From NCBI GenBank assembly GCA_018671895.1, contig JABHGV010000016.1, positions 1-44,029 of the forward strand: a stretch of DNA of 44,029 nucleotides, read 5' to 3'. The notes below the pieces were generated by a model that worked only from the letters and a program-made list of their open reading frames with translations, searched no databases and was not told where the DNA came from. Of the stretch, positions 6,856-12,920 are shown in pieces. Position numbers and translations under genes: made by a program. Position 1 is the stretch's first letter; every line of letters begins with the position of its first letter. This stretch comes from Rhodospirillaceae bacterium. Its GTDB lineage: Bacteria; Pseudomonadota; Alphaproteobacteria; Rhodospirillales; JABHCV01.

Positions 6856-7446
6856 CTATTTTGCTTTCTTGCCCTTTTTGCCCTTCATGGCGTTGAGCTG
6901 ATTTTGCATGGCTTCCAGCTGTTCATGCAGGGCGTTCAGGTCTTGTTCCGGCGCTTCTGATTTTTCATCATTATCCTGAGCGCCATACAAAGGCGTGAAC
7001 ATTTTCATGGCGCCTTCGAACAGCTCCATATTCTGTTTGCCCATTTCCTCGAACTGTTGAAACGGCATCAACCCGTCCAGGGCATCACGCATGTAATGAC
7101 GCATCTGTTCCTGATTGCGCGCAAACGAGCCCATGGAATGGTCCAGATATCGCGGCACCAGCGATTGCAGACTGTCGCCGTAAAAGCTGATCAGGTGGCG
7201 CAGGAAATTGATCGGCAGCAGGTTTTGGCCCTTGGATTCTTCCTCGACAATGATGTGGGTGAGCACGCTGCGGGTAATATCGTCGCCAGATTTTGCATCG
7301 AAAACGACAAAGTTAATGCCGTCCTTAACCATCTGCGAAAGATGATCCAGGGTCACGTAGCTGCTGGTCGCAGTATTGTAAAGTCGCCGGTTTGCGTACT
7401 TCTTGATCGTAATCGGCGCTTCTTCCGTGGCATTTTTGTCGGCCAT
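6856..7446 (-). CDS. phaR: PhaR, polyhydroxyalkanoate synthesis repressor
   Basis: A 196-residue regulator. The N-terminal PHB/PHA accumulation DNA-binding domain is visible at residues 12-75 (ITIKKYANRRLYNTATSSYV, then LDHLSQMVKDG and FVVFDAKSGDDITRSVL). The middle part (FLRHLISFYGDSLQSLVPRYLD) is the second conserved PhaR block, and the Lys-rich end follows a Gln/Glu helix. PhaR binds DNA when no PHA granule is present and moves to granules once they form, which derepresses phasin and synthesis genes. It is divergent from the phaE-like/phaC genes; TGCA-N-TGCA sites lie in that gap, before phaA and before ccr. Confidence 0.95.
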   Translation of the reverse strand: MADKNATEEAPITIKKYANRRLYNTATSSYVTLDHLSQMVKDGINFVVFDAKSGDDITRSVLTHIIVEEESKGQNLLPINFLRHLISFYGDSLQSLVPRYLDHSMGSFARNQEQMRHYMRDALDGLMPFQQFEEMGKQNMELFEGAMKMFTPLYGAQDNDEKSEAPEQDLNALHEQLEAMQNQLNAMKGKKGKKAK

Positions 7447-7563: not shown

Positions 7564-7944
7564 ATGAGTGATGATACGGACAAAACGAATATTGACGAAC
7601 TGGCGGGTCGTTACATTGACCTGTGGCAGAAACATCTGGCCGCGCTGTCGGCGGATGGCGAAGTTGCCGAGCTGGTCGCCAAGAGCGTCGAACTGATGAA
7701 CAGTTCTGCCGCCACCATCGCCGCCATGAATTTGGGGGAGCACGAGAATGCCGGAGCAACTTCAGGAAACCCATGGGCACAAGCAGGATTCCAGGGTGGG
7801 GCCACGGCCGCTGGCGCTACACATGGCAACCCAGACCATGATGTGGACGAGCTTACTCGCCGCATTGCCGAGCTTGAGGAACGGGTCGCTGAGTTGGAGT
7901 CCAGACCTGCAAAACGCCGCAAGGGGGCTGGAAAAAAAGCTTGA
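7564..7944 (+). CDS. Small coiled-coil protein, putative PhaE-like PHA synthase partner
   Basis: The ATG at 7564 gives 126 residues; the 18-codon upstream extension is not needed. The N-terminal helix (ELAGRYIDLWQKHLAALSAD) is amphipathic, the middle is Gly/Ala/Asn-rich, and the end is a coiled coil (DELTRRIAELEERVAELESR) with a basic KRRKGAGKK tail. Position directly before a short PhaC resembles the phaE-phaC pair of class III synthases, but the protein is far smaller than classical PhaE, so the name is only positional. No ribosome site precedes the ATG, and TATAGT lies 7 bases upstream, so the mRNA could be leaderless. Its 3' half overlaps the phaC frame. Confidence 0.6.
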   Translation: MSDDTDKTNIDELAGRYIDLWQKHLAALSADGEVAELVAKSVELMNSSAATIAAMNLGEHENAGATSGNPWAQAGFQGGATAAGATHGNPDHDVDELTRRIAELEERVAELESRPAKRRKGAGKKA

Positions 7945-9007
7945 GGGTGTCGAGCCCGAGGACTTTGCCGCGGCAATAGATGCCGAGGCACGCCGCCGCC
8001 TGATGTGTTTCGCCGATGGCGTCATTGCCTATCGGGACAACAAACGCATTCCCCGCCCGCCTGAACCCGATTGCGTCTGGCAACAAGGCAGCACCCGGCT
8101 GCTTGATTACGGCACCATCGACGGGGCCGACAAAAACGGCATCGGGGTGCTGTTCGTGCCGTCGTTGATCAACCGGTCCTACATTCTGGACCTCAGTGAA
8201 AAGCGCAGCCTGTTGCGCGACCTGTCCAAGCGCGGATTTCGTCCGCTGCTTGTCGATTGGGGCGAGCCCGGCGAGGAAGAATTAAAAGCCGATTTGAACG
8301 ATACCATTTGCGGGCCGCTGGATGCGGCATTCACCGCCGCGCGAAACCTGACGGATGGCAAGATCGCCGTCGTTGGATATTGCATGGGCGGGCTGTTGGC
8401 GCTGGCGCTGGCAAAACGCCGCATCGAAGACGTTTCGTCGCTGGTCATGCTGGCGACGCCCTGGGATTTTTACGCCTATGACCCCGGCAAGACCCGGATG
8501 CTGAAGGCGATGGTGCCGAACATTGAGCACCTGATCGACACCGTCGGCTTCCTGCCGGTAGATGTTTTGCAGGCCATGTTCGCCAGTTTCGATCCCAACA
8601 TGACACCGCGAAAATTCCGCACCTTCGCCGCACTGAACGGCAACAGCGCCCGGGCGCGGGATTTTGTCGCACTGGAAGACTGGCTGAATGACGGCGTTCA
8701 CCTGGCCGGACCGACGGCCCGGAACTGTCTGATCGACTGGTATGTGGACAACCTGCCCGACAAGGGGGAATGGATCATGGACGGCGAGCCGGTGCGCCCG
8801 GAAGATATTCATGTGCCGACATTGGTTGTTATTCCAAAGCGTGATTACATCGTGCCGCCGGAATCGTCCGCACCGTTGTTGCGGCTTTTGCCCGACGTCA
8901 CCGAGATGGAGATTGATGGCGGACACATCGGCATGATGGTCGGTTCCAAGGCAAAGGGCGGCCTGTACACGCCGCTGGCCAAATGGCTGGAGAAAAATAT
9001 CGTCTAA
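7748..9007 (+). CDS. phaC: PhaC-like poly(3-hydroxyalkanoate) synthase, short form
   Basis: An alpha/beta-hydrolase-fold PHA synthase, which polymerises (R)-3-hydroxyacyl-CoA on the storage granule. The lipase-box variant VVGYCMGG holds the nucleophile C212, with D366 (PKRDYIVP) and H393 (GGHIGMM) completing the triad (numbering from 7748). VPSLINRSYILDL and LLVDWGEPG are typical of the short class III-like branch. ATG 7748 has a strong ribosome site (GGGGGAG, 7734-7740) and gives 419 residues, but this makes a 197-base overlap in another frame with the upstream gene. ATGs at 7823 and 7838 are alternatives without a clear ribosome site. Homology begins only around residue 60-80, so the exact start is open; the enzyme call is firm. 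Confidence 0.9.
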   Translation: MPEQLQETHGHKQDSRVGPRPLALHMATQTMMWTSLLAALPSLRNGSLSWSPDLQNAARGLEKKLEGVEPEDFAAAIDAEARRRLMCFADGVIAYRDNKRIPRPPEPDCVWQQGSTRLLDYGTIDGADKNGIGVLFVPSLINRSYILDLSEKRSLLRDLSKRGFRPLLVDWGEPGEEELKADLNDTICGPLDAAFTAARNLTDGKIAVVGYCMGGLLALALAKRRIEDVSSLVMLATPWDFYAYDPGKTRMLKAMVPNIEHLIDTVGFLPVDVLQAMFASFDPNMTPRKFRTFAALNGNSARARDFVALEDWLNDGVHLAGPTARNCLIDWYVDNLPDKGEWIMDGEPVRPEDIHVPTLVVIPKRDYIVPPESSAPLLRLLPDVTEMEIDGGHIGMMVGSKAKGGLYTPLAKWLEKNIV

Positions 9008-10375: not shown

Positions 10376-11101
10376 ATGAGTCGAATCGCAGTTGTTACCG
10401 GGGGAACACGCGGCATCGGGCGCGCCGTTTGTATAGCACTGAATGAAGAGGGTTACACCGTCGCGGCCAGTTATGCAGGCAACGACGAGGCCGCCGAAAA
10501 GTTCCGCGAGGAAACCGGCATCCCGGTGTTCAAATTCGACGTTGGTGATTTCGACGCCTGCGCCACCGCCATCGCAGCCATCGAGGCCGACCTTGGACCC
10601 ATCGACGTGTTGGTCAACAATGCCGGCATCACCCGCGACGCCGCCCTGCACAAGATGACGCCCGATGAGTGGTCAGCGGTGATAGACACCAACCTGAGCG
10701 GGCTGTTCAACATGTCGCGCAATGTCATCGACGGCATGCGCGAACGCAAGTTCGGGCGCATCATTTCCATCAGTTCCATCAATGGCCAGAAAGGCCAGTT
10801 CGGCCAATCCAACTATTCCGCCGCCAAGGCAGGTGACATTGGCTTTACCAAGGCATTGGCGCTGGAAACGGCGGCCAAGGGAATTACTGTGAACGCCATC
10901 GCACCGGGCTACATCGGCACGGAAATGGTTCTCGCCGTTCCCGAAGATGTGTTGAACGAGAAAATCATTCCGCAAATCCCCGTTGGCCGATTGGGCGAGC
11001 CCGAAGATGTGGCGCGGTGTGTGGTTTTTCTGGCAGATGACAGTGCCGGTTTCATCACCGGGGCGACGTTGACCGTTAACGGCGGTCAGTATCTGACCTG
11101 A
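10376..11101 (+). CDS. phaB: PhaB, NADPH-dependent acetoacetyl-CoA reductase
   Basis: A short-chain dehydrogenase of 241 residues that makes (R)-3-hydroxybutyryl-CoA. The cofactor loop is TGGTRGIG (residues 8-15), NNAGITRD follows at 81-88, and the catalytic residues are S133/S134 (ISSI), Y147 and K151 (YSAAKAG). The C-terminal GATLTVNGGQYL is that of PhaB rather than FabG. Ribosome site CAGGGAGA is present. Downstream of phaA with an 85-base gap, so probably one transcript phaA-phaB. Confidence 0.95.
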   Translation: MSRIAVVTGGTRGIGRAVCIALNEEGYTVAASYAGNDEAAEKFREETGIPVFKFDVGDFDACATAIAAIEADLGPIDVLVNNAGITRDAALHKMTPDEWSAVIDTNLSGLFNMSRNVIDGMRERKFGRIISISSINGQKGQFGQSNYSAAKAGDIGFTKALALETAAKGITVNAIAPGYIGTEMVLAVPEDVLNEKIIPQIPVGRLGEPEDVARCVVFLADDSAGFITGATLTVNGGQYLT

Positions 11102-11214
11102 TTTTTCGCCGATATAAGGATCTCTTAAGGGTATTGCCCTAATAATTGGCTGTCTTCACATTATATGATGAAGATGGACGATTCGCGTCGTCGCCATTTT
11201 TAGACCGAGCCGAA

Positions 11215-12102
11215 ATGACTGCAATGCGCCTGATAATTCTGTCCCTTGTTCTTGCCATTTTTTGTGCGAATACGCAGGGATTTGCCGCAACGAAAAAAAT
11301 AGCGGACGGCAAGGTCGCGTTCCTGGCAAATCTGGCGGACAAAAAAGCATCGAACGGTAAATCCACAAACGGCAAAAGGCGCTATATGAAGCCCGGCTTC
11401 ATTGGCAAATCCTATCCGCAATTTAACTATCGGGAATTCACCCTGATCGGCACTGAGCCCGGAACCCAGGGGATTCCGTCGAACGACATATTCTTCGATA
11501 AAGTCAGGGAAGCCATCGACCTGATCGCCAAAAAGTCGCCAGAAATTTTTCAATTTATGCAGGACATCAACCCCAAGGGGAAACGCATTATTGCCTATAC
11601 CGGCAAGATCGGCCCGGCATCGTTCGCATCGTGGGACGGCGATTATGTCGTCAATATTTCTGTAACCGGTATTAATGAAGACCCGGTGTTTGAAAACTCC
11701 CCCTATTCACTGGCGTCAAGTATGGTCCATGAACTGGCCGGACACGGCAGTCAGGAAAACGATGATCGCCTGTGGGCCATGTATGACTGGTGCGGCAAGG
11801 ACAGCAGCACCGTCAAAGGTGTTCTGTGGCAGGCCAACCATACCGGATCGAGCAGCGGGTTCGTTGAATACGAGGCCAACCTGTACGCCCGCTGGTTCCT
11901 GGAGACTGTGCGCGGCACCTATCCTGATCTGATCGAACCCGCCGTCCGGCGTTATGTGAAGACGGTGCGGATTATGAAAAAACGGTTCCCCGGCTGGTAC
12001 GACGAACGCAAGGACACGATTACCTTGCTTGCCGAGTTTGGAGCCCATTTCGGCAAAGTCTGCCCCGAGCAGAAATTCACGCCGCATACATCTGATAATT
12101 AG
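11215..12102 (+). CDS. Secreted protein with HEXXXH motif, putative zinc metallopeptidase
   Basis: ATG 11215 (or 11224) gives a signal peptide (MRLIILSLVLAIFCANTQG) and about 295 residues. I do not recognise the family. The central feature is MVHELAGHGSQ with H172, E173 and H177: one residue more between Glu and the second His than in classical HEXXH zinc peptidases. Such HEXXXH spacing is known from dipeptidyl peptidase III, where an EExxxE/D-type motif supplies the third ligand. Here GFVEYEANLYARWF about 45 residues later offers E218 and E220. The rest is not recognisably DPP III and is much shorter. It follows phaB by 113 bases and ends inside a perfect 14-base inverted repeat. Peptidase activity is inferred only. 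Confidence 0.7.
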   Translation: MTAMRLIILSLVLAIFCANTQGFAATKKIADGKVAFLANLADKKASNGKSTNGKRRYMKPGFIGKSYPQFNYREFTLIGTEPGTQGIPSNDIFFDKVREAIDLIAKKSPEIFQFMQDINPKGKRIIAYTGKIGPASFASWDGDYVVNISVTGINEDPVFENSPYSLASSMVHELAGHGSQENDDRLWAMYDWCGKDSSTVKGVLWQANHTGSSSGFVEYEANLYARWFLETVRGTYPDLIEPAVRRYVKTVRIMKKRFPGWYDERKDTITLLAEFGAHFGKVCPEQKFTPHTSDN

Positions 12103-12121
12103 GTTTCACCTAATTATCAGA
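12091..12121. terminator. Perfect inverted repeat at the end of the metallopeptidase-like gene
   Basis: TCTGATAATTAGGT (12091-12104) and ACCTAATTATCAGA (12108-12121) form a perfect 14-base stem with a 3-base loop. The left arm contains the stop codon (12100-12102). No T-run follows on the plus strand, so it is not a textbook intrinsic terminator; mRNA end protection or recognition by a protein is as likely. Confidence 0.55.
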
Positions 12122-12150
12122 AAGATGTTATTGCCCCTCAAACGCCGGGC

Positions 12151-12205
12151 GGGGCTCCTCGCCCCTTGGCTTTCGCCGAACGGTCGGCGGCCCGCAGTCG
12201 CGGGC
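12151..12205. repeat. Three consecutive perfect short hairpins
   Basis: GGGGC/GCCCC (12151-12155, 12161-12165; loop TCCTC), CGCCGA/TCGGCG (12174-12179, 12184-12189; loop ACGG) and GCCCGC/GCGGGC (12190-12195, 12200-12205; loop AGTC) stand in a row in a non-coding stretch. Together with the stem at 12091-12121 and repeat copy A this fills the whole 185-base gap with foldable elements. Confidence 0.7.
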
Positions 12206-12211
12206 TTGTAG

Positions 12212-12271
12212 AAAACCTGACTCCTATAAAAAATAGAACTTGGCTTCCAGAACCCGCGCCGCGAAGCGCGA
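12212..12271 (+). repeat. Dispersed hairpin repeat, copy A
   Basis: Copy A has AAAACCTGACTCCT, then ACTTGGCTTCCAGA, then a GC-rich hairpin around GCGAAGC. It shares AAAACCTGACTCCT at nearly the same distance (32 versus 33 bases) with copy D, and TTCCAGA plus a GC stem-loop with all five copies. It lies between the convergent ends of the metallopeptidase-like and GST genes. Confidence 0.65.
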
Positions 12272-12287
12272 AAAACAAAAAAGGCCT

Positions 12288-12920
12288 CTATGCCGGATCT
12301 TTAGGGGTTGTTTTGGCCATCGATGCGCGGCCTGAAAAAGTATCGTAAAAATCGGCCAGCGCCGGGCGATTTTCGCGCCAATTATCGGCATCGAAACGAA
12401 GGTCCAGATAGCCCAGCGCCACGGCAATGGTGATGTGGCCGATGGTGACATCGTCGCCAGAGCCATCAGCCTCTTTACCAGCAAAGCCGTCGGCTTCTTC
12501 TTCCAGGGCATCCAGCGCCCGGTCGATAGCCGCCTTCTGGCGCTCAGCCCAACTGTCGGAACGTTCGCCGTCAGCGCGTTTGCCTTCCATCAGCCTGAGA
12601 ATAGCCGCATCCATGATGCCGTCGGCCAGGGCCTGACGACGCAACGCCGTCCAGCGCGCGCCACCTGCGGGCGGGAACAGTTTGACCCCGTCGTGCAGGC
12701 TGTCCAGATATTCGCAAATGACCGGCGAATCATACAGTGTCTCGCCGCCGTCCAGCACAAGGGTGGGCACTTTGCTTAATGGATTGTCGTTGACCAGATC
12801 GGGTCCTGACTCCCAGGCGTTGGTAGCGATGGCTTCAATGGAATCCTCGAGCCCGGTTTCGATGGCCATCACCATCACTTTGCGAACGTAGGGAGAGGTC
12901 GGCGAATAACGTAATTTCAT
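12288..12920 (-). CDS. Glutathione S-transferase family protein
   Basis: A 210-residue cytosolic GST; the ATG at 12920 with AGGAC upstream begins the real homology (MKLRYSPTSPYVRKVMVMA). SPTSPYVRK is the N-terminal catalytic loop, KVPTLVLDGGETLYDSPVICEYLD carries the cis-Pro and the Glu/Asp-Ser glutathione site, and the helical C-terminal domain ends in WRENRPALADFYDTF. It resembles GstA/YibF-like bacterial enzymes; substrate unknown. It lies 16 bases after gloB on the same strand, so the two glutathione-dependent genes are probably one operon. Confidence 0.9.
   Translation of the reverse strand: MKLRYSPTSPYVRKVMVMAIETGLEDSIEAIATNAWESGPDLVNDNPLSKVPTLVLDGGETLYDSPVICEYLDSLHDGVKLFPPAGGARWTALRRQALADGIMDAAILRLMEGKRADGERSDSWAERQKAAIDRALDALEEEADGFAGKEADGSGDDVTIGHITIAVALGYLDLRFDADNWRENRPALADFYDTFSGRASMAKTTPKDPA

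Follow-up and report, generated by a model that had tools for sequence, protein, structure and literature searches.

An uncatalogued family of bacterial proteins with export signals, a conserved HExxGH–Glu site and a predicted gluzincin-like fold

One gene in a 44,029-nucleotide stretch of DNA from a Rhodospirillaceae bacterium (contig JABHGV010000016.1; the whole stretch is called the window below) probably codes for a metal-dependent hydrolase that is exported. The product is most likely a zinc peptidase, its catalytic domain being of the gluzincin type. By its sequence, the protein is a member of a widespread, uncatalogued family of bacterial proteins predicted to be exported, whose putative metal-binding motif, HExxGH, is one residue longer than usual. 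If this reading is true, a common, unnamed family of exported peptidases can be given an identity, together with a catalytic site and a mechanism open to testing, and the long-spaced HExxxH site is found in another setting. The site-bearing members, together with one member without the site, would then form a natural series for studying how a gluzincin helix accommodates an extra residue.

Export signal and conservation of the HExxGH–Glu site

The window protein begins with a signal-peptide-like segment (residues 1–25, MTAMRLIILSLVLAIFCANTQGFAA), in which the most hydrophobic 12-residue stretch gives a Kyte–Doolittle peak of 3.27 and is followed by an Ala-rich cleavage-like site, as judged by eye (table 1). 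Past the signal peptide, the sole cysteines are C193 and C283, both of which are kept in every row of the subgroup formed by the closest relatives (subgroup A, defined below). The largest subgroup, C, has a separate conserved Cys pair elsewhere in the sequence, kept in 51/51 and 50/51 of the rows labelled C, a count that leaves aside one further C-type row (of 52) that had carried the label A. These conserved pairs, at different positions in the two subgroups, suggest disulfides and fit an oxidizing location, consistent with export.

Table 1. Coordinates of the gene, of the proposed site and of neighboring features in the window
Feature	Position	Strand	Basis
CDS of a predicted exported, HExxGH–Glu gluzincin-like protein, 295 aa	11215..12102	+	ORF; relatives; in-frame TTG at 11146 as possible alternative start
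Predicted signal peptide, residues 1–24, cleavage GFA/AT by eye	11215..11286	+	Hydrophobicity scan; model helix 3–17, low-confidence stretch 17–54
HELAGH, residues 172–177; proposed metal ligands H172 and H177, proposed catalytic base E173	11728..11745	+	33/33 invariant; each 67/68; model helix 163–182
Insertion of 23 residues (about residues 190–212) with WCGKD, specific to subgroup A	11782..11850	+	Alignments A2 and A3; spacing list
C193, possible disulfide with C283	11791..11793	+	7/7 subgroup A rows; disulfide inferred
E218, proposed third metal ligand	11866..11868	+	33/33 invariant; 67/68; model helix 215–232
E220, second Glu of EYEAN, not universal	11872..11874	+	Kept in 55/68
C283, possible disulfide partner of C193	12061..12063	+	7/7 subgroup A rows; disulfide inferred
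phaB-like reductase gene, upstream neighbor	10376..11101	+	Context only; gene name as in the sequence-only reading
Terminator-like stem at the phaB end	11084..11098	+	Stem scan
Second terminator-like stem, between phaB and the gene	11177..11192	+	Stem scan

A sequence-only reading of this DNA had singled out HELAGH (H172, E173, and H177) and a downstream EYEAN at residues 218–222, and both are where it placed them. Taken alone, HExxxH is a weak signal: it appears in a shuffled copy of the window protein with a probability of 0.0042, and 2 of the 41 genes in the window carry it against 0.30 expected by shuffling, the other being the gene at 446–1714, with HESGKH. The site stands above chance because it is conserved in relatives. 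In an alignment of the window protein with 32 relatives that are 16–59% identical to it (alignment A7), H172, E173, G176, H177, and E218 are kept in all 33 rows. Loci L004, L005, L007, and L009 had been dropped because they duplicate the window, L001, L002, and L003, respectively. A7 also omits L015, which has an X and is close to L012, and L017, which is close to L016; L085 is identical to L084. For two sets of loci the ORFs were extracted via the motif, and none was missed for lacking it (8/8 and 13/13).

A wider set came from searching every fetched locus with a profile, without preselection for the motif, and comprises 68 distinct domains (102 ORFs, cut to 68 by removing matching cores); it contains all 33 A7 rows used for the profile and 35 more. 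G176 is kept in 68/68 of these domains, and H172, E173, H177, and E218 in 67/68 each, so that the variation of the site among homologs, named beforehand as grounds for refuting the idea, did not occur. The proposed site is thus, as far as conservation can tell, not a chance feature. That HExxxH is a random string in an unrelated protein, as might be argued from the 0.42 per cent of shuffles that have it and from its presence in one other window gene, is barely credible against its retention in 67/68 distinct relatives and the gluzincin-like predicted fold. E218 and E220 had been put forward as equal candidates for a further ligand, but they differ in conservation: E220 varies, being kept in just 55/68 domains, and was rejected as the third ligand, which makes E218 the likely one.

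The sole exception is L122 (657–1472, minus strand), a family member that has lost the four site residues together, with Q, R, Y, and V in their places. Its end branch (4.53) is by far the longest in a tree built from 67 rows, all of the 68 but L120, which contains a run of X, and the placement of long rows, L122 included, is unsure according to the tree tool's own warning. L122 looks like a probable pseudoenzyme, and the joint loss of the four residues is as predicted if they form one site.

Extent of the family and genomic context

The three close relatives in named records come from Rhodospirillaceae or Rhodospirillales metagenome genomes. A search with the single sequence gave matches in 12/297 genomes of the order; profile A2 gave matches in 7/385 genomes of the class and 3/398 of the phylum, and the broader profile A3 in 6/6 genomes of the family and 50/248 of the order, all of these tallies including the window's own genome and some genomes that gave rows to the profiles. 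Among the genomes searched, most of the family members found belong to the same alphaproteobacterial order.

The 68 domains fall into three subgroups. Subgroup A consists of the window protein and six close relatives, shares the 23-residue insertion with WCGKD, and is recovered as one group in the tree with a support of 100/99; subgroup B (9 rows) has a shorter loop, and subgroup C holds the other 52 rows, L014 among them, mostly with HELxGHGxQ...ECEA. The distance between the positions equivalent to H172 and E218 differs accordingly, with 46 residues in the window protein, 23 in subgroup C, and 17 in subgroup B. Sel1 repeats lie C-terminal of the HExxGH domain in all ten long C-type proteins picked for a Pfam scan, with 1 to 10 repeats each (L019, L020, L079, L080, L083, L084, L086, L088 (1309–2655), L089, and L090), and in 2/13 members of another Pfam scan; among the 68, the full-length scans covered these proteins. 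Two subgroup C copies adjoin in tandem in one genome (L088, 1309–2655 and 2708–3667, plus strand).

Searches of family libraries returned little beyond these repeats. The window protein has no meaningful match in Pfam (E up to 10), a single noise match in NCBIfam (PRK14056, E 0.22), antibody and anti-CRISPR noise only among PDB sequences (E 0.67 and above), and one weak match only among plasmids (E 0.8). Its relatives match Sel1 and TPR_27 repeats in Pfam, with one weak DUF6599 match (1/33 members, E 0.0042) and noise. In NCBIfam, 22 members gave MerG, ExoR, MotX, and AlgK models in 3–4/22 each, plus noise, and these matches presumably arise through the Sel1-type repeats. No relative was found with PADLOC among 33 members, nor in viral contigs, phages, and plasmids with subgroup C queries, and PDB profile searches gave nothing except one unrelated match to RabGDI (E 0.098). 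There is accordingly no sequence match to any known peptidase in the Pfam, PDB sequence, and PDB profile searches. In a limited search of the literature on HExxxH peptidases, the parts of the sources consulted contain no description of the exported HExxGH family, although one may well exist elsewhere.

The gene lies downstream of what we take to be a phaB-like reductase, a position that the sequence-only reading called unexplained; a role in extracellular polymer or peptide turnover was for that reading only a guess. phaB precedes the gene in 5/7 subgroup A genomes (the window and four of the six relatives examined), all five from one family; in G064, the sixth genome of that family, the only match is of subgroup C. 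In the two remaining subgroup A genomes, G026 and G078, phaB does not adjoin: one has arginine deiminase-like, DivIC-like, and AMP-ligase/acyltransferase neighbors, and the other an HD-domain gene, an Fe–S assembly gene, and a sub-threshold arylmalonate decarboxylase-like fragment. Two terminator-like stems intervene between phaB and the gene in the window; positions 11000–12350 hold five such sites versus a mean of 2.1 (sd 1.3) in shuffles, which does not show that they function. Since the adjacency to phaB is confined to one family, and since terminator-like stems lie between the two genes, it gives little as a functional clue and does not support a role in polymer turnover. A link to polyhydroxyalkanoate metabolism was rejected on these grounds and because the neighbors are others elsewhere.

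The surroundings of phaB offer two observations of their own. For a phaC-like gene at 7748–9007 (plus strand), Pfam gives general alpha/beta hydrolase models only and none specific for PHA synthases (E up to 0.001). A divergent regulator of polyhydroxyalkanoate accumulation with PHB_acc_N and PHB_acc domains (6856–7446, minus strand) adjoins the pha cluster, and such a regulator is likewise present in the three related contigs long enough to include this position (L027, L031, and L032).

Among 13 loci of distant relatives (L056–L068), neighbors cross-match in sets of two to four loci, and no neighbor gene recurs in most of the 13. This lack of a consistent clue, together with the lack of substrate evidence for the family and the persistence of L122 despite the loss of all four residues, by which the fold could outlast the site, leaves room for an exported metal-binding protein other than a peptidase, such as another hydrolase or a sensor of a metal or ligand. 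We consider this unlikely, since E173, the proposed catalytic Glu, matches the ligands in conservation (67/68), and a protein that only binds a metal would have no need of this residue.

Predicted fold and proposed mechanism

AlphaFold models were obtained for the window protein (alignment A2; pLDDT 75.8, medium confidence) and for the subgroup C member L023 (alignment A6; pLDDT 86.6). The two proteins are distant members of the family, with 17% identity; the alignments have most rows in common, so the two models are not independent. In each, HExxxH lies on one long helix (residues 148–167 in L023; window protein in table 1) and the conserved Glu on the next (residues 176–193 in L023), with E218 near the start of that helix in the window model. 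As far as secondary structure goes, this arrangement agrees with the convergence of H172, H177, and E218 on one site.

Foldseek gave no match below E 0.001 for either model, the best being an M61 aminopeptidase for the window model (E 1.6e-3) and SjiH for L023 (E 0.17). With VIA-align, ChlB comes first for both models through its HExxH domain, at Z 10.3 for the window model (173 aligned residues, 4.0 Å) and Z 9.4 for L023 (160 aligned residues, 4.1 Å). Below ChlB, the best 50 matches listed for both models include SjiH, M1 aminopeptidases, leukotriene A4 hydrolase, and clostridial neurotoxin light chains, and those listed for L023 also include lugdulysin, anthrax lethal factor, and thermolysin. 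We take all of these structural neighbors to share the gluzincin layout. The Z scores at rank 50 are 7.6 (window) and 7.0 (L023), versus the 4–5 that the tool states as typical for unmatched models, whereas the best scores of 9.4–10.3 are modestly above the 7–8 that, by the tool's own figure, are common for unmatched models. Dipeptidyl peptidase III and MATCAP chains were absent among the best 50 matches listed for both models, which was not counted against either. These predicted neighbors support a gluzincin-like fold without proving it. The His-to-Glu spacing of subgroup C, counted from the aligned strings, is 18 residues, close to the 19–20 of M1 and M4 peptidases.

The best structural match is itself a reason to consider that the family could consist of metal-dependent oxygenases with this fold, akin to the alpha-ketoglutarate HExxH peptide hydroxylases. 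ChlB exceeds the best peptidase for the window model by 1.5 (Z 10.3 vs 8.8, no tie), ties with it for L023 (9.4 vs 8.6), and is joined by SjiH at Z 9.2 and 8.3. Family members bear export signals, however, and alpha-ketoglutarate is cytosolic; their motif is also one residue longer than HExxH, with HExxGH instead of the five-residue form in 33/33 rows, and no oxygenase family of this kind appears by name among the six listed for 22 members in NCBIfam, nor among the Pfam matches of the window protein and 33 members, in libraries that may lack such a model. There is a precedent for a confusion of this sort, as one account describes a HEXXH protein that proved to be an oxygenase despite its annotation as a metallopeptidase (PMC12636437). 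With the best structural match on one side and export on the other, the oxygenase stays alive as a rival, at a low probability.

Under the peptidase reading that we prefer, the metal and the catalysis, the peptide substrate, and the location of the window protein are all things that we infer, and they would combine as follows. A metal would be held by H172 and H177 from one helix and by E218 from the next, and E173 would activate a water molecule for attack on the peptide bond. The extra residue of HExxGH relative to HExxH may be absorbed at the invariant Gly176 by a local distortion of the helix, the kind of change reported in TldD and dipeptidyl peptidase III. In the members that carry them, the C-terminal Sel1 repeats could serve to bring in a periplasmic partner or substrate.

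Relation to known HExxxH and gluzincin families

The sequence-only reading saw in the window protein an imitation of dipeptidyl peptidase III (M49), the one peptidase family to which it ascribed HEXXXH. This reading is partly right: a conserved HExxxH and Glu site in a protein with an export signal and outside the M49 profile is borne out, but the motif is not exclusive to that family: TldD, the tubulin carboxypeptidases, and some polyvalent-protein peptidases (PMC5512222) use it too, as far as the cited accounts go. The hexapeptide HEXXGH was once called unique to M49, yet some M49 members have HEXXH (PMC5805324). HELAGH agrees with the zinc motif HEXXGH/HEXXH of M49, which is not diagnostic, since other families have it. 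Neither does the spacing of 46 residues betray a likeness to M49, as it is due to the 23-residue insertion of subgroup A and shrinks in the other subgroups.

A miniature M49 enzyme would share with the window protein the hexapeptide, given as the M49 hallmark in the part of that source consulted (PMC5805324), and a downstream Glu. This is highly improbable. M49 proteins have about 550 residues or more, whereas the window protein has 295, an export signal, and no match to the M49 profile PF03571 (E up to 10 for the window protein, E up to 0.01 for 33 members) or to M49 chains among PDB sequences (E up to 10). Alignment with hhalign to 11 M49 proteins of the phylum gave probabilities of 0.2–0.3 per cent and left the motifs unaligned; these 11 are of the HExxH type, the hexapeptide type being covered through Pfam and PDB sequences only. 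The EExKAD motif with its adjacent Glu pair, invariant in those 11 M49 proteins (E404, E405, K407, A408, and D409), is absent in the family, which has EYEAN or ECEAW. The M49 proteins of the phylum (L033–L047) have HExxH and not HExxGH in 15/15 fetched loci of 29 matches.

The tubulin carboxypeptidases are HExxxH gluzincins in which an EEG motif further downstream supplies the third residue that binds the metal, as one account has it (PMC10499314). They resemble the window protein in HExxxH and a downstream Glu; the family differs from them in lacking a match to the TMCP/MATCAP profile PF08014 (window protein and 33 members) and QEGLA, which is invariant in 7/7 MATCAP rows (alignment A5) and replaced here by ECEAW or EYEAN. 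In hhalign the HE...H motifs and the Glu were superposed with those of MATCAP, without significance (probability 0.3 per cent). TldD, another HExxxH metallopeptidase, binds its metal through HExxxH, with a distorted helix, and through a Cys (PMC5810440); this third ligand is a remote Cys, and the fold of TldD is a different one. Here C193 and C283 are kept in 7/7 subgroup A rows, but no Cys position is common to all subgroups, whereas E218 is kept in 67/68. No TldD family match was found in Pfam or NCBIfam. By these comparisons, the window family belongs to none of the tested HExxxH families (M49, MATCAP, and TldD).

The remaining likenesses are of fold or architecture. The alpha-ketoglutarate hydroxylases ChlB and SjiH, of which ChlB is the best structural match, have the HExxH spacing, whereas the window protein has HExxGH and an export signal. 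BepA-type M48 peptidases join an exported metallopeptidase to helical TPR repeats. For the Sel1-fused members they provide an analogy only, since BepA has HExxH, TPR rather than Sel1 repeats, and no sequence similarity that we found, and it appears as an insignificant Foldseek match of the L023 model (E 1.7).

It is an even call whether a wider account holds in full, namely that this is a widespread family of exported gluzincins in which HExxGH is the norm, with no sequence relationship to M49, MATCAP, and TldD and with an extra residue of independent origin, whose Sel1-fused members act in periplasmic protein quality control and which includes one fast-evolving pseudoenzyme. Its nearest counterparts would be the gluzincins among the predicted fold neighbors, to which we assign the family labels M1, M4, M27, M30, M34, and M61. 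These have two His and a Glu on one helix and a further conserved Glu on the next, an arrangement that the models predict for the window family too; they carry HExxH, whereas the window family has HExxGH, no detectable sequence similarity to them, a small size, an export signal and, in some members, Sel1 repeats.
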